DNA from: Myxococcales bacterium
GTDB lineage: Bacteria; Myxococcota; Myxococcia; Myxococcales; JAJYLH01
Assembly (NCBI GenBank): GCA_021787845.1
Contig: JAJYLH010000046.1
Location: 1 to 46,844 of the forward strand
Direction: 5' to 3'
Length of the DNA stretch: 46,844 bases
A program made the translations under genes and the position numbers. Below the pieces are notes generated by a model. That model worked only from the letters and a program-made list of their open reading frames with translations. It was not told the DNA's origin and made no database searches. Below are positions 2,979 to 46,718 of this stretch, piece by piece (the stretch's first letter is position 1; each line of letters opens with the position of its first letter).

Positions 2979-3080
2979 AGGGCGAGCCACGGCAGCCTCG
3001 CGACCGGGCGCGTCCGAAGTCGCCGTCCGCGATTGACCCGGCGGGACTTCCAGCGCCTCAGCTTCGTTCCGGTGGGCGTC

Positions 3081-3122
3081 GATCGGACCGATCGGTCGGA
3101 TCGGTCCGATCGGTCCGATCGG
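3081..3122. repeat. 9-bp palindromic array, locus 1
   Basis: Between proC and the response regulator lie four full units and one partial unit of GATCGGWCS in tandem (GATCGGACC, GATCGGTCG, GATCGGTCC, GATCGGTCC, GATCGG). Two neighbouring units form the perfect palindrome GGACCGATCGGTCC. The same array recurs at 8052, 10533, 22717, 30813, 31835 and 44462. The rest of the 337-bp gap (2979-3315) shows nothing I can name. Confidence 0.85.
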
Positions 3123-7974: not shown

Positions 7975-8051
7975 GGCGGGCAGGACCCCTCTCGCCGACC
8001 ATCGCAATCAGCAGAACTGGCGTCGGGACTTCGTGGCTTCGCGGGACGTCC

Positions 8052-8087
8052 GATCAGACCGATCGGTCGGATCGGTCCGATCGGTCT
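8052..8087. repeat. 9-bp palindromic array, locus 2
   Basis: Four tandem units (GATCAGACC, GATCGGTCG, GATCGGTCC, GATCGGTCT) lie in the convergent gap between hcrB and the lipoprotein gene. Confidence 0.85.
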
Positions 8088-22027: not shown

Positions 22028-22884
22028 CAGAAGTCCTCCTCGTCGCTCGAGTCCTGGTCGGGAATGTCTTCCTTGTCGCCGACGACCTTGATTTCTCCCG
22101 AGAGCGGGTAGACGTGAATCGAGTACCAGTCGTCCTCGCCGTGGTGCAGCTCGATGTTCGCGAGCTCGGTCTCGCCGGAAGGGAAGAAGTAGAGGTAGGC
22201 CTTCCCTTTGTCGTACTTTTCGGTCTGGTGCGCGACCCAGATGTCACCGAAGTCGATGCCCTTGAGCTTCTGGACCGGCAGCACCGGGGAGGGCTTGAAC
22301 GCTGTCTTCTCTTGGAGTCGCTTGCGCTCCTGGGCCGCCTCGTCGGACTGCGAGACGTCGAAGTCGTCCGAGTCGGCCTGGTCCATCTCCTGGTTGCGCG
22401 AGCCCTCTTTCTGGATGGTCGCGTCGCCCTTGGTGCACTCGACGTAGTAGCTGTTGTCCGGCTGCGACTGGCCCTTGCCGGCGGCGGTGCAGTCCTTGAT
22501 GCAGAAGACCATCCGGCAGGTCTCGTCGGCCACCGCCGCGTGCCCGCGGGTCGCCCGGATGTTCGAGGCGAGCGCGCTCACCTCCTGCCGGGCCTTGATG
22601 CCGACCACGCTCTCCAGCGTCGGAATCGCGATGCCGATCAACAGCACCATCACCAGGAGGACGACGCCGATTTCGATGAGCGTGAAGCCGCGAGGCGGTC
22701 GGCCCGGGCCTGCGGCGATCGGACCGATCGGTCCGATCCGACCGATCGGTCTGATCGGCCTGACTTGGCTTGGCGGCCACGGCACGGCGAAGGAGAAAAG
22801 AACGCGCGGCCGCCGGCGCGAAGCCGATTCTCGCCGGCTCGTGCCCTGCCCTCGACGTTCCATCTGGCGCTGGCCGGCCGTCAC
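22027..22884 (-). CDS. gspH: Type II secretion system minor pseudopilin H, with a repeat inside its leader
   Basis: GspH connects the tip to the shaft. The mature protein starts at FTLIEIGVVLLVMVLLIGIA after Gly66 and ends with a globular domain. Residues 140-180 include an acidic DQADSDDFDVSQSDEAAQER stretch. No start codon in this frame lies close to the cleavage site. The best start is GTG 22884, 13 nt after the gspG stop, with GAGG 10 nt upstream; ATG 22863 is an alternative. This gives a 66-residue leader whose residues 42-56 (RPIRPIGRIGPIGPI) are encoded by the 9-bp palindromic array. The family call is firm; start and leader are inferred. Confidence 0.85.
   Translation of the reverse strand: MTAGQRQMERRGQGTSRRESASRRRPRVLFSFAVPWPPSQVRPIRPIGRIGPIGPIAAGPGRPPRGFTLIEIGVVLLVMVLLIGIAIPTLESVVGIKARQEVSALASNIRATRGHAAVADETCRMVFCIKDCTAAGKGQSQPDNSYYVECTKGDATIQKEGSRNQEMDQADSDDFDVSQSDEAAQERKRLQEKTAFKPSPVLPVQKLKGIDFGDIWVAHQTEKYDKGKAYLYFFPSGETELANIELHHGEDDWYSIHVYPLSGEIKVVGDKEDIPDQDSSDEEDF
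22717..22761. repeat. 9-bp palindromic array, locus 4, inside gspH
   Basis: Five tandem units (GATCGGACC, GATCGGTCC, GATCCGACC, GATCGGTCT, GATCGGCCT). The 9-bp unit keeps the reading frame open on the gspH strand and encodes a Gly-Pro-Ile/Gly-Arg-Ile repeat. Confidence 0.85.
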
Positions 22885-30758: not shown

Positions 30759-30812
30759 GCCGCACGGGCGGAACGGCTGCGCCCCTCCGCGTCCGGCCCG
30801 TCCCGCATGTCC

Positions 30813-30839
30813 GATCGGTCCGATCCGACCGATCGGTCC
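30813..30839. repeat. 9-bp palindromic array, locus 5
   Basis: Three units: GATCGGTCC, GATCCGACC, GATCGGTCC, between the amidase gene and the T2SS operon. Confidence 0.8.
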
Positions 30840-30904
30840 GAGAGCGGGTCCGAGCGCGCGTGCTGCTCGCGCTAGCCGGCAGCGCTTCGGCTAAAAAGTA
30901 GCGC

Positions 30905-31834: not shown

Positions 31835-31879
31835 CATCGGACCGGTCGGTCGGATCGGTCCGATCGGTCGGATCGGTCC
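31835..31879. repeat. 9-bp palindromic array, locus 6
   Basis: Five units (CATCGGACC, GGTCGGTCG, GATCGGTCC, GATCGGTCG, GATCGGTCC) in the shared upstream region of two divergent genes, so it may affect both promoters. Confidence 0.8.
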
Positions 31880-32023
31880 GAGTCCGGCAGGCTGGCGGCT
31901 TCATCGGGCGGATGAGCCCTGCAGCGCTGCCAAGCGGTTTCCCTGGCGAATCCCGTGCCCGCCGGCACCGCTTCTCCCAGCCGGCGTGCGAACGGAGCGA
32001 GACCGGTCTAGTCTCGCGCTGGG

Positions 32024-38600: not shown

Positions 38601-40718
38601 GAAGGCGCACGCGTCCGCGCCGGAGCAGCCGCCGCTCCATTGATAGAACGCCAAGCCGGTCCCGCCGGCGGTGGTGGTGAAGGAGAGGTTCGTTCCCGCG
38701 GGGAAGACGGCCTGGCAGGTCCCCTGGTTGTACGAGCTCGTGGTGGTGGTGCAGTCGATGCCCGCGGGGCTGCTCGTGACGGTGCCGTCGCCCGAGACGC
38801 CGACCGAGATCTGATACGCGACGGCGAAGGTCGCGGTCACCGCGTGGTCGCTCGACATGTCGAGGGTGCAGGCGCCGGTGCCGGTGCAGTCGCCGCTCCA
38901 GCCCGTGAACATCGAGCGCGCCGGGCTGTCGATGTGATTCGCGCTGAGCACCACCGAGCCGCTGCCCGTGTCGCTGTCGGGGAAGGCGAAGGTGCAGGTG
39001 CCGTTCCCGCCGCTCGAGCAGGAGATGCCCTGCGGAGCCGAGCCGACGACGCCCGTGCCCGCGCCGGCTATGGTCACCGTCACCGTGTGCGTCTTCACGA
39101 AGGTCGCGGTGATCGTCGTATCGGTCGTGATCGAGAACGAGCAGGAGCTGCCGCTGCAGCCCGCGCCGGAGAAGCCCGCGAACTGGGAGCCCGCGCTGGC
39201 CGTGGCGCTGAGCGAAATCCACTGGTTGGCAGAGAACGCCGCGCTGCAACTTCCCGAGGGGCAATCGATGCCCGCGGGGCTCGACGTCACCTCGCCGCTC
39301 CCGTCGCCGGCCATCACGAGCGAGAGCACCGGCAGCTTCGCGAACGACGCCGTCGCGGTCATGTCGCTCGTCATGCTGAAGTTGCAGGTCGCGTAGTTGC
39401 TTCCCGTGCAGGGGCCGGCGGTCCATCCGCCGAAGGCGTAGCCCGTCGCGGGCGTGGCGGTGAGCGTGACGGCCTGCTGGTCCGCGAAGGTCGCGCTGCA
39501 CGTGCCGCCGCTCGAGGTGCAGGCGGCGATTCCAGCGGGCGTGCTGTCCACCTCGCCTCCCGCGTTCGCGGTCACGGTGAGCGTGCGCTCGGCGGTGAAA
39601 GTGGCGCTCGCGCTGACGAAGCCGCCGCTCGAAACTTGCACGGTGCAGGTGGGGGAGGTGCCGTTGCAGTTGCCGCCCCAGCCGGCGAAGACCGAGCCCT
39701 GCGCCGCGGCGGCGGTGAGCGTGACGCTGGTGCCGCCGGAGAACTGCCACTGGCAGTCGCCGCTCGTGCAGGTGTTCGAGCCGGAGCTCGCCGTCACCTG
39801 CCCGCTCCCGCTTCCCAGGACCTGCACGTCGAGCGTGCCCTCCTGCGAGCTGCTGGAATTGAAGGTGGCGGAGACGGTGACGGAGCCGTTCACCTGCACC
39901 GTGCAGGTCGCCGCGCTCGGGTCGCTGCAGGGCGGGCCCCAGCCGGCGAAGGTCGAGCCGGAATCGGCAGTGGCGCTGAGCACGACCTCCTGGCCGTTCG
40001 AGAAGCTCGCCGCGCACTGGCTGCCGCAGTCGATGCGCCCGTCGGGCGAGGTGGAAACGACCGTTCCCGAGCCGTCGCCGGTCTTCTGAACCAGGAGCTG
40101 CGCGTTGCCGCCGTTGCCGATCACGGTGATCGTCGCCGTGCCCTTCACGTTCCCGATGGCGGCGTGGATGGTCGCGGTGCCCGGTCCCTCGGCGTGGAAC
40201 CAGCCGTCGTTCTGCTGGTGCGGCGTCGCCACGCTCGGCGCGTCCGACGTCCACGTGAACGGCGGGTGGTTGCCGACCACGTTGTTCTGCGCGTCGCGCG
40301 CGGTCGCCGTGAACTGGAAATCCTGTCCCGGCTGGAGGGTGGTGCTCGCGGGATCGACCTCGATCTGGGCGACCTGCCCGCTGTTCCCTTGGGCAAAAGT
40401 GGCGGTGATGCTGAGGTCCGCGACGGCGCTGAACGCGCACTGCGCGCTCGTGGTGCCGTTGCAGGGGCCGCCGCTCCAGCCCGTGAAGCTCGCGCCGTTC
40501 TGCGGCGCCGCGTTCAAGGTGACCTTCGTGCCGCTCTGGAAATCGGCGTCGCACTGCGACGGACAGTTGATGCCGGCGGGCACCGACGTGACCTGCCCGC
40601 TGCCGTCGACGCTGACGTGCAGGTGATGCTTCGCGGGCGGCGCCGGCTGGGAGGGGCTGCCCTTGCAACCGAACTGCGCCGCGAGAACGGCGAGCGCGAT
40701 CCAACTTGCGCGCGACAT
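35691..40718 (-). CDS. Giant secreted repeat protein: InlB-B-like repeats plus about 18 propeller blades
   Basis: The 1675-residue protein starts at ATG 40718 (GAGGTGG 4 nt upstream). The signal peptide (WIALAVLAAQFGC) ends at a cysteine, so it may be a lipoprotein although the lipobox is poor. Seven divergent InlB B-type repeats follow at about residues 79, 258, 343, 430, 514, 606 and 693 (FTGWSGGPC, FAGWGPPC, FGGWTAGPC, FTGWSGDC and so on), each with a Cys pair. A Big2-like domain is inserted near 116-200. After an Ig-like domain (ALSISGLPSGVTGTFDP), residues 830-1675 hold about 18 blades of the pattern VAIESGGATALVT…GRLVRVDLASG, as in NHL/YncE-like propellers. Four blades carry a C-G-x(n)-C disulfide loop (TDCGATSC, TDCGPTNC). 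A surface adhesin or scaffold role is inference. Confidence 0.8.
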   Translation of the reverse strand: MSRASWIALAVLAAQFGCKGSPSQPAPPAKHHLHVSVDGSGQVTSVPAGINCPSQCDADFQSGTKVTLNAAPQNGASFTGWSGGPCNGTTSAQCAFSAVADLSITATFAQGNSGQVAQIEVDPASTTLQPGQDFQFTATARDAQNNVVGNHPPFTWTSDAPSVATPHQQNDGWFHAEGPGTATIHAAIGNVKGTATITVIGNGGNAQLLVQKTGDGSGTVVSTSPDGRIDCGSQCAASFSNGQEVVLSATADSGSTFAGWGPPCSDPSAATCTVQVNGSVTVSATFNSSSSQEGTLDVQVLGSGSGQVTASSGSNTCTSGDCQWQFSGGTSVTLTAAAAQGSVFAGWGGNCNGTSPTCTVQVSSGGFVSASATFTAERTLTVTANAGGEVDSTPAGIAACTSSGGTCSATFADQQAVTLTATPATGYAFGGWTAGPCTGSNYATCNFSMTSDMTATASFAKLPVLSLVMAGDGSGEVTSSPAGIDCPSGSCSAAFSANQWISLSATASAGSQFAGFSGAGCSGSSCSFSITTDTTITATFVKTHTVTVTIAGAGTGVVGSAPQGISCSSGGNGTCTFAFPDSDTGSGSVVLSANHIDSPARSMFTGWSGDCTGTGACTLDMSSDHAVTATFAVAYQISVGVSGDGTVTSSPAGIDCTTTTSSYNQGTCQAVFPAGTNLSFTTTAGGTGLAFYQWSGGCSGADACAFPDLAADHSLTAQFRSFDFSIASNLYCPYGGDGGAFSLLQGETRSASVTLTLTAGATVPTALSISGLPSGVTGTFDPASLSPTGSSTLTLTAGSTVPAGNTSNVTITATGNGVTRTFGFGLNVRPTRGVPDIGAFAIEPGGATALVTDDDRLTRVELTKFTATKTVASCIGRTLNGVAVDPTDTFALVGTWGRSSEPNVLQKIDLASGTVTTVSTHPGSVQGVALASNGTLAYVTDCGATSCATTGRLVSVDLASGTITPITSSGQGIVNPGYGVQPEPDGHHILVGENGASPDTARLLRINLTTQGIAALASGLHNANGVSLESGDQSALIAVNGNGVDRIALATGTSTFIAPIPGSGCCAPTISDVAIESGGRTALISMAGRNGAGDAPLVRVAVDSQVATLAPGRQSSDSLFAPMGIALGPGGTTALVTDCGPTNCSTTGRLVSVDLAQGLVTAITPTSTGIPRTLGVALESGGTTALLVQGDIGAGGDLLRVTLADGGITTLASGIHRPNDFAIESGGATALVTIGDGPLDRFTLSGSPGPSQLLDFPGSGCCAPGIDGVAIEPDGSTALVAINGSGSIPDAQVAKVDLGNGSYSTLTRGIALANGVTMAPSGTAALVTDFNDGRLLSVETSTGVQTMLASDLDHPQGIAVDAAGTHALVPTGWTNTSNVLQQISLTPTIAPESIAVGLNDTQWGQGANGGGGDLAIESGGATALFLDCGPNPEPNGGNCANDGRLVRVDLTSGAITPIVSNLNVPHGLVIESGGTKALVSVCGPQGDLNNCATDGRLVEITLSSGAEAVGTTGLDTPGAIVEEAGGTYLVTDLTGGGRLLRVDPSDWSYAVIASGLSNPREVVIEAGGATALIAADGIERVDLAAKTVTKLVDWNIERFALEASGDTVVFVGTDPESVASFGRAYLDGGAVDLLAPSQFLTAQGIHLESGGTSAIVVELSNVTGAIWRVPVPAPT

Positions 40719-40942
40719 GGAACCACCTCGGGTACCCGTCTTTCGCCCGTCGGCTGTTGCGGTCACTCGCGCCCGACTGCGCTCGAAACCGAACCGCCGA
40801 CTCCGAGCGAGCCTTCTATCGGATGGACTCGTGCCGGAGGGGATCGCGCCCAAGATGTGCCATCGCGCACGACGATAGGCGAGGTTCGTGCTGGCGGTCA
40901 AGCGGCGCGTCGAGGCGGTGAAGGAGAGGGCATCGACTGACT

Positions 40943-41377
40943 CGGTGCGATCGGCGAGAAACTGGTCCGGAAATCGAGTAACTCGATGCGATCGGCGAGA
41001 AACCGGATGCGATCGGCGAGAAACCGAGTGCGATCGTCGAGAAACTGGTCGGGAAATCGAGTAACTCGATGCGATCGGCGAGAAACCGAGTGCGATCGGC
41101 GAGAAACTGGTCCAGAAATCGAGTAACTCGATGCGATCGTCGAGAAACCGGTCCAGAAATCGAGTAACTCGATGCGATCGTCGAGTAACTCGATGCGATC
41201 GTCGAGTAACTCGATGCGATCGTCGAGAAACTCGATGCGATCGTCGAGAAACTGGTCCAGAAATCGAGTAACTCGATGCGATCGTCGAGAAACTCGATGC
41301 GATCGTCGAGAAACTCGATGCGATCGTCGAGAAACTGGTCCAGAAATCGAGTAACTCGATGCGATCGGCGAGAAGCG
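40943..41377. repeat. Mixed tandem array of 21-bp and 20-bp units
   Basis: Fifteen copies of a 21-bp unit (consensus CGATGCGATCGTCGAGAAAC plus T/C) are interspersed with six copies of a 20-bp unit (GGTCCAGAAATCGAGTAACT). The order from the left is 21-20-21-21-21-20-21-21-20-21-20-21-21-21-21-20-21-21-21-20-21. Units contain the palindromes ATCGAGTAACTCGAT (across the 20/21 junction) and CGATCG. The array lies between two divergent genes, in the 808-bp gap 40719-41526. The rest of that gap holds the leader region of the giant protein and a 29-bp repeat. There are no unique spacers, so it is not a CRISPR array. Confidence 0.95.
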
Positions 41378-41526: not shown

Positions 41527-42621
41527 GTGCCGAACGCGAGTGAAGCCGTGGTCCAGCGTCTCGTGCGGGCGTTCGCGCGCGCGACGTTGCCCAGGACCGA
41601 GCCCCAGCCGATCGCGGTCGCGGCGCTCAGGCGCGTTCTCGTCGTGCGGCCGGACGACCGGGTGGGCGACGTGCTCTTGACGACGCCGCTCCTGCGCGCG
41701 CTGCGCGAGGGGCTGCCGCACGTGCGCATCGACGTGCTGCTCGCCGCGCGCCGGCAGGTCCTCATCGATGGTCTCTTTCTCGCCGACCGCTTCGTGCCCT
41801 ACGACAAGCGGCGCGCCGCCCGCAACCCGTTCTCCTTCGCGGCGCTGATGCGGCGGCTGCGCCAGGAGGATTACGACCTCGCCATCGACGCGACCCACGC
41901 GGTGAGCTTCTCGTTGACCGCGGCGGTCTTGACCCGGGCGACCAACGCGCCGGCGCGCATCGGGCACGACCGCGGCGACGCCGCGCGCTTCTACACCCAC
42001 CCGGTCCAGGTGCCGCCGGAGCTGCGCCACGACGTCGCGGCGAAGCTCAAGCTGTTGGAGCCGCTCGGCTTGAAGCCGCGGGGCCTCGAGTTGGAGACGA
42101 GCGCGGGGCTCCTGCCCGACGCGGTCTCGCGGGTCGAGGAGCTGCTCGCCGAGGCCCGGCTCGAACGCGGGCGGTACATCGTCGTCAATCCCGGCGCGCG
42201 CAAGGCCGACCGGCGGGTCGCGCCCGAGACGCTCGCGCGCATCGTCCAGCGGCTCCGGGCGGCGACGGGGCTCAAGGCGCTCATCGTCTGGGGTCCTGGG
42301 GAGGAGGAGCTGGCGCAGGCGGTCTGGCGGGTCGCGGGCGACTCGGCGGTGCTCGCGCCGCCGACCGACTTGCACGAGCTCGCGGCCCTCCTGCGGCGTT
42401 CGGCGCTCGCGATCACCGCGGACACCGGGCCGATGCACCTCGCGGTCGCGTGCCAGGTGCCGGTGCTCGCGCTCTTCACCCAGGGCGACAGCGCGCGCTG
42501 GGGCCATCCGCTTCCGACCTTCCACGCCATCGAGCAGGCGGATGGGCGCGCGGATCTCGAGGACGAGGTGGAAGCACAAGCGCTCAGGTTGCTCGACGGC
42601 GCTGGCGTGAGGCGGACGTGA
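41527..42621 (+). CDS. Family 9 glycosyltransferase (heptosyltransferase-like)
   Basis: This 364-residue GT-B enzyme would transfer a heptose or related sugar during lipopolysaccharide core or surface polysaccharide synthesis at the inner membrane. The N-terminal signature VVRPDDRVGDVLLTTPLLRA and the C-terminal ADTGPMHLAVACQVPVLALF define family 9. NPGARKADRRVAPETLARIV is the second-domain start. GTG 41527 is preferred: GAGGG lies 8 nt upstream and the protein then begins shortly before the Rossmann fold, whereas upstream starts run back towards the tandem array. The acceptor cannot be told from the sequence. Confidence 0.88.
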   Translation: MPNASEAVVQRLVRAFARATLPRTEPQPIAVAALRRVLVVRPDDRVGDVLLTTPLLRALREGLPHVRIDVLLAARRQVLIDGLFLADRFVPYDKRRAARNPFSFAALMRRLRQEDYDLAIDATHAVSFSLTAAVLTRATNAPARIGHDRGDAARFYTHPVQVPPELRHDVAAKLKLLEPLGLKPRGLELETSAGLLPDAVSRVEELLAEARLERGRYIVVNPGARKADRRVAPETLARIVQRLRAATGLKALIVWGPGEEELAQAVWRVAGDSAVLAPPTDLHELAALLRRSALAITADTGPMHLAVACQVPVLALFTQGDSARWGHPLPTFHAIEQADGRADLEDEVEAQALRLLDGAGVRRT

Positions 42622-42691
42622 TTCTTCGACGCGAGGTCACTGCCGTTGAAGGCTCCTCAACCGAATCAGTGCGTGCGAATCTAGCCGACCT

Positions 42692-42833
42692 TGGAGCCGG
42701 AGACGTCAGTGTCCGGGTCGGGCACTGTCTTTCGCTCCTCGATCGTCCCAACGTCCCACGCTGGAGTCTAAATGCGACTTCCGCGGTCGGCGAACGGCCT
42801 GCCGGCACCCGGACACTCACGTGTCCGGCTCCA
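42692..42833. mobile_element. MITE-like element with 27-bp imperfect terminal inverted repeats
   Basis: The left end 42692-42718 (TGGAGCCGGAGACGTCAGTG…) is inverted at 42807-42833 with 25 of 27 positions matching. The right end also folds on itself (CCGGACACTCACGTGTCCGG). It sits in the 283-bp gap between the glycosyltransferase and yicC, unlike families A to C in sequence. Confidence 0.6.
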
Positions 42834-42904
42834 GCTCTCGTTCCACAGCGCGCACAGATTTCGTTGGAGAGCCCTGTTTTGGGCACGAGTGACGCGAGGT
42901 CTTC

Positions 42905-44408: not shown

Positions 44409-44461
44409 GTTGACGCCGCAGGCGTCCTGATCCCCCGGGCCGCGCCGTCGCCCGTCAATGC

Positions 44462-44506
44462 GATCGGACCGATCGGACCGATCCGACCGATCGGTCTGAT
44501 CGGACG
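44462..44506. repeat. 9-bp palindromic array, locus 7
   Basis: Five units (GATCGGACC, GATCGGACC, GATCCGACC, GATCGGTCT, GATCGGACG) in the convergent gap between gmk and the outer-membrane protein gene. Confidence 0.85.
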
Positions 44507-46570: not shown

Positions 46571-46718
46571 GTATTAATCGTTGCGAAAGTAGTCGCAGTC
46601 GGAGTCTCGTGGCACAGGCGTCCTCGCCTGTGAAAGCCACAACGAAGGCTACACGGGCGGGGACGCCCGTGCCACGACTGATGATGCGAGGTGCAGATAC
46701 TTTCGCAACGATTAATAC
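46571..46718. mobile_element. MITE-like element with perfect 21-bp terminal inverted repeats
   Basis: The left end 46571-46591 (GTATTAATCGTTGCGAAAGT plus A) is the exact reverse complement of 46698-46718. The interior has another inverted pair (GTGGCACAGGCGTCCTCGCC and GGGCGGGGACGCCCGTGCCAC, at 46609-46676). The AT-rich ends contrast with the GC-rich surroundings, suggesting recent arrival. It has no coding capacity. Confidence 0.7.

Follow-up and report, generated by a model that had tools for sequence, protein, structure and literature searches.

The window, the whole 46,844-nucleotide stretch of Myxococcales DNA that was analysed, carries a tandem array that is probably one locus of a lineage-specific family of dispersed intergenic minisatellites, one that probably serves no function. 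This reading is backed by block duplications, degenerate end units, variants particular to each array, flanks that are not shared between loci and mixed gene contexts. The positions of the array, its units and related features are collected in Table 1.

The array consists of 15 units of 21 bp and six of 20 bp on contig C8. The patterned mixture of the two lengths, already noted in the original prediction, is borne out both by the spacing of a unit anchor ([TG]CGAG[AT]A, 21 occurrences spaced 20,21,21,21,20,21,21,20,21,20,21,21,21,21,20,21,21,21,20,21) and by Tandem Repeats Finder (40940–41374, period 21, 21 copies, score 417). The program also detects longer periods of 62 (score 420) and 83 (score 431), whereas 20 dinucleotide-shuffled versions of the window reach a score of 75 at most. 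The array is therefore confirmed as real, with head-to-tail imperfect short units in excess of chance. The 21-bp unit is made up of a core, TGCGATCGTCGAGAAAC, and a 4-bp linker. The 20-bp unit, CTGGTCCAGAAATCGAGTAA, is related to the 21-bp unit and follows one in every case, so that the visible blocks are 41 bp and 21 bp long. The basic higher-order period of 62 bp corresponds to 41+21, and that of 83 bp to 41+21+21. At 53.5% GC, versus 69% for the window, the array is richer in AT than the DNA around it.

Table 1. Positions of the tandem array, its variant units, neighbouring genes and related arrays.
Feature	Position	Strand	Remarks
Whole tandem array	40940..41376	.	15 x 21 bp + 6 x 20 bp; last unit degenerate (TGCGATCGGCGAGAAGC)
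20-bp unit 1	40962..40981	+	CTGGTCCGGAAATCGAGTAA; anchor spacing, sequence
20-bp unit 2	41045..41064	+	CTGGTCGGGAAATCGAGTAA; anchor spacing, sequence
20-bp unit 3	41107..41126	+	CTGGTCCAGAAATCGAGTAA; anchor spacing, sequence
20-bp unit 4	41148..41167	+	CCGGTCCAGAAATCGAGTAA; anchor spacing, sequence
20-bp unit 5	41252..41271	+	CTGGTCCAGAAATCGAGTAA; anchor spacing, sequence
20-bp unit 6	41335..41354	+	CTGGTCCAGAAATCGAGTAA; anchor spacing, sequence
Run of 21-bp units with linker TCGA	41168..41251	+	CTCGATGCGATCGTCGAG[A/T]AA; palindrome-bearing variant common to C8, C49 and C141/C29
Left neighbour, large protein of 1675 aa	35691..40718	-	InlB-B-like and Ig-like repeats; signal-like N-terminus MSRASWIALAVLAAQFGCKGS
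Right neighbour, glycosyltransferase family 9 (GT9) gene	41527..42621	+	Pfam PF01075; start assigned by eye
Probable ISAzo13-like insertion in sister array	L073 8188-8326 + reverse complement of L070 1-121		TAA duplication
Diverged 21-bp array	L095, C146:50554-50776		TGCGATCGACGAGCGTTGGAG; shares TGCGATCGnnGAG core with main family

The array is intergenic and non-coding. As first proposed, it lies between divergent genes: the minus-strand gene on its left, for a secreted or lipoprotein-like product, starts at 40718, ~220 bp away, and the plus-strand GT9 gene on the other side probably begins near 41527. All six reading frames shift or hit a stop across the array, and it is therefore not a protein repeat, in agreement with the original prediction. 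Proteins recognised in the window include GT9, YicC, guanylate kinase, type II secretion/pilus proteins, P5C reductase and a tRNA nucleotidyltransferase-like protein. A separate intergenic element of 230 bp with an inverted motif, CCGGACACTCACGTGTCCGG, lies on the downstream side of GT9 (42651–42879); a copy ~75% identical to it occurs near the C141 array (L073 7749–7979).

The same units recur elsewhere in the genome. Searching its contigs with up to three mismatches gives unit clusters on C8, C29, C43, C49 and C141 and near-background counts elsewhere, and thus at least three further arrays besides that of the window (C43, C49 and C141/C29). BLAST with the whole array as query adds a weak cousin on C146 (E 0.0155), which keeps the exact 21-bp spacing and TGCGATCGnnGAG but differs in the remainder (CGTTGGAG). 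For the original prediction, a simple strain-variable minisatellite with many unrelated genomic copies and no bound protein would have been a refutation; that picture holds in part, in that related copies are found elsewhere in the genome. Contig C43 ends inside its array, C49 ~190 bp past its array, and C29 and C141 inside multi-copy DNA adjoining theirs. The repeats thus broke the assembly, and the array count is a lower bound.

Each array has its own variants. Similarity is higher within arrays than between them for both the 21-bp units (0.893 vs 0.870, permutation p 0.01) and the 20-bp units (0.937 vs 0.889, p 0.0005), and in C43 the unit spacing is strictly 20,21,21, repeated. With the arrays masked, the DNA adjoining them shows no homology between loci, and the array boundaries fall at different unit phases from locus to locus. 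The gene contexts also differ. The C8 array is in a divergent intergenic region, that of C43 lies ~60 bp 5' of a small gene on the minus strand, that of C49 is downstream of a redoxin gene, and C141/C29 falls between AMP-binding and ResIII genes.

One of the sister arrays is apparently interrupted by the end of an insertion sequence. The sequences on C141 and C29 are most likely halves of a single array into which an ISAzo13-like transposon has inserted, duplicating its TAA target. On the C141 side the array reads ...AATCGAGTAA and then GGCGGCGTAAAT, and on the C29 side ATTTACGCCGCC is followed by TAACTCGATGCG.... The two ends form a perfect inverted repeat of 12 bp (GGCGGCGTAAAT), TAA is duplicated, and joining the two flanks restores a normal unit. 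The element is seen by its ends; the C-terminal 31 aa of a peptide upstream of the C29 junction match the C-terminal end of PF07592 (ISAzo13-type DDE transposase) with an E-value of 3.6e-5, which falls short of the curated cut-off. Another multi-copy element, whose seven copies all run off contig ends, apparently begins just inside the 12-bp left inverted repeat.

Other dispersed intergenic repeats are abundant in this genome. The palindrome CCGATCGG underlies 9/18-bp units (e.g. CGATCGGACCGATCGGTCGGATCGGTCC) that make up six short arrays in the window, at 3080–3122, 8048–8086, 22716–22758, 30809–30841, 31836–31881 and 44461–44505. A rough gene call places five of these arrays in intergenic DNA, and with related copies on C141 and C43 the six form a second dispersed tandem family. 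A ~147-bp MITE-like element is present in the window (46572–46718) and twice on L073 (4158–4306 and 5555–5701). Its copies are 96–98.6% identical, it matches itself in inverted orientation at ~73%, and its ends are TATTAATCGTTGCGAAAGTA.

Outside this genome, the array has no BLAST match among 144 other members of the order, the nearest genomes compared, or among the 146 other genomes covered for the class and the 194 for the phylum. Collections of plasmids (72,556 records) and phages (50,697 records) likewise contain no array match, and an exact 19-mer is absent from viral contigs. In GTDB species genomes the 19-mer turns up 14 times, as single matches that are scattered, with no tandem reported. 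As far as can be tested, the array family thus appears confined to one lineage of Myxococcales-like bacteria.

The copy number and the 21/41/62/83 pattern may have arisen by slipped-strand replication together with unequal recombination, which would duplicate whole blocks, and local homogenisation would then give each array its own variants. Rare exchange between arrays, through recombination or gene conversion, could found new loci, as could illegitimate seeding, with no transposon of their own being involved. Such arrays would presumably be neutral, and this sequence analysis gave no positive evidence of an encoded RNA, an encoded protein or a bound protein.

One hint of function runs against the minisatellite reading. 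In the 41 21-bp units from five contigs, conservation of the 17-bp core is at least 0.90 at all positions but one (T/G after CGATCG), whereas the 4-bp linker varies (0.59–0.85). CGATCG itself is present in 15/15 21-bp units of the window array and in 38/41 overall. In the window as a whole it is not enriched (67 observed vs 63 expected), which speaks against a HIP1-like word enriched across the genome. Together with the C146 cousin, which retains its core at 21-bp spacing, the conserved core and variable linker are compatible with recognition by a protein, as a lead rather than proof. The array could then serve a lineage-specific DNA-binding protein, either a nucleoid organiser or a regulator, as a landing pad with multiple sites, the recognised TGCGATCGNCGAGAAAC recurring every approximately two helical turns. 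This is unlikely, although the conserved core, the frequency of CGATCG and the persistence of both the 21-bp spacing and TGCGATCG in C146 speak for it. No single-copy sites occur outside arrays at 0–2 mismatches, the gene contexts are mixed, and conserved and non-conserved positions are likewise combined in the unit of the BrickBuilt minisatellite (PMC4596501). A fuller version, in which such a protein recognises the core and the dispersed arrays act as chromosome-organising or regulatory landing pads, near two-turn spacing being kept while the linkers drift, would be a little harder still to credit.

The landing-pad reading also has to accommodate helical phase, which the 20-bp units break. 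Each of them shifts the phase by ~34 degrees, which amounts to ~206 degrees over the window array at 10.5 bp/turn. The palindromes had been expected to recur on one DNA face; this is true within runs of 21-bp units, but across the array the 20-bp units make them drift. The conclusion hangs strongly on the assumed pitch, with a phase resultant length of 0.56 at 10.5 bp/turn, 0.93 at 10.4 and 0.09 at 10.6. The palindrome, ATCGAGTAACTCGAT, occurs six times in the window array and is itself due to one linker variant, TCGA. C8 and C49 often carry this linker, whereas C43 never does (0/12).

Dependence on a single linker variant also weakens the reading of the array as a transcribed hairpin RNA (an attenuator, stability element or small RNA), which is very unlikely. 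RNA from the C8 array folds far better than shuffles (z -6.2), but for its homologue in C43 this is not so (z -0.96), because the C43 linkers do not complement the core, and there is no Rfam match. It is just as improbable that the array is a decayed coiled-coil coding repeat, with the 21-bp unit reading LDAIVEK in one frame and the 20-bp unit being a heptad, LVQKIEK, put out of frame by the loss of one base. A length of 21 bp does equal one heptad, and short runs of LDAIVEKLDAIVEKLDAIVEKLVQK occur in one frame. However, heptads can be read from any stop-free 21-bp repeat, the 20-bp unit breaks the frame in every array, and the genome holds no in-gene relative, the best match outside the known arrays being the intergenic C146 array.

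The original prediction likened the array to iterons or centromeres. The palindrome is missing from C43, the phase drifts, no replication or partition gene is present among the window proteins tested and parS is found on C113; an iteron or centromere-like array is therefore unsupported, and an iteron origin or a parS-like plasmid or chromosome centromere is the remotest of the explanations. Tandem ~21-bp units with palindromes do resemble iterons, and in the myxobacterial plasmid pMF1 dispersed iterons serve as centromeres (PMC3235114). However, the pMF1 iteron motif AGATGTCT (PMC3235114) is absent from the window, the subset of window ORFs scanned includes no replication initiator or ParB, and the array has chromosomal neighbours (GT9, YicC and guanylate kinase) and no counterpart in the plasmid and phage records. 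GC skew, proposed as a sign of a nearby origin, does not switch near the array. The published M. xanthus parS consensus, TGTTCCACGTGGAACG (PMC3899335), occurs exactly on contig C113, where a ParA-like gene adjoins it, following yidC and rsmG. Its presence there fits an organism that is probably a deep branch of Myxococcales. A search for parS in the form TGTTTCACGTGAAACA gave no match, and the best matches to Myxococcales parS in the window have two mismatches to the 12-bp core and all lie outside the array.

Among published elements, the closest analogues of the minisatellite family are BrickBuilt and the STAR elements. BrickBuilt, a minisatellite/MITE of Porphyromonas gingivalis (PMC4596501), is similarly an imperfect short tandem unit (23 bp) at several intergenic loci per genome and limited to its species. 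However, it mostly has a shared leader and tail and small terminal inverted repeats, which the present arrays lack. The present units alternate between 21 and 20 bp, and no BrickBuilt element is bisected by a transposon, whereas one array here is apparently IS-interrupted. The STAR elements of Staphylococcus (PMC3532100), whose function is unknown, are also dispersed intergenic direct repeats at species-specific loci, but they consist of a 14-bp repeat with 40 bp or more of recurring sequence between copies, while the present units run head-to-tail without spacers. Iteron arrays and parS clusters share the ~21-bp repeats and the palindromes inside units; they differ in that here no cognate rep/par genes lie nearby among the window proteins scanned, the palindrome is not conserved and a Myxococcus-type parS is found elsewhere in the genome.

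Bacterial VNTR or minisatellite loci resemble the arrays in their head-to-tail imperfect units, edge degeneration and block duplications, but not in having related arrays at several loci and a 41/62/83-bp higher-order period. The family described here is a clear further example of bacterial minisatellites that have such a higher-order structure and are dispersed over several loci, and would matter more only if its conserved core is a protein site.
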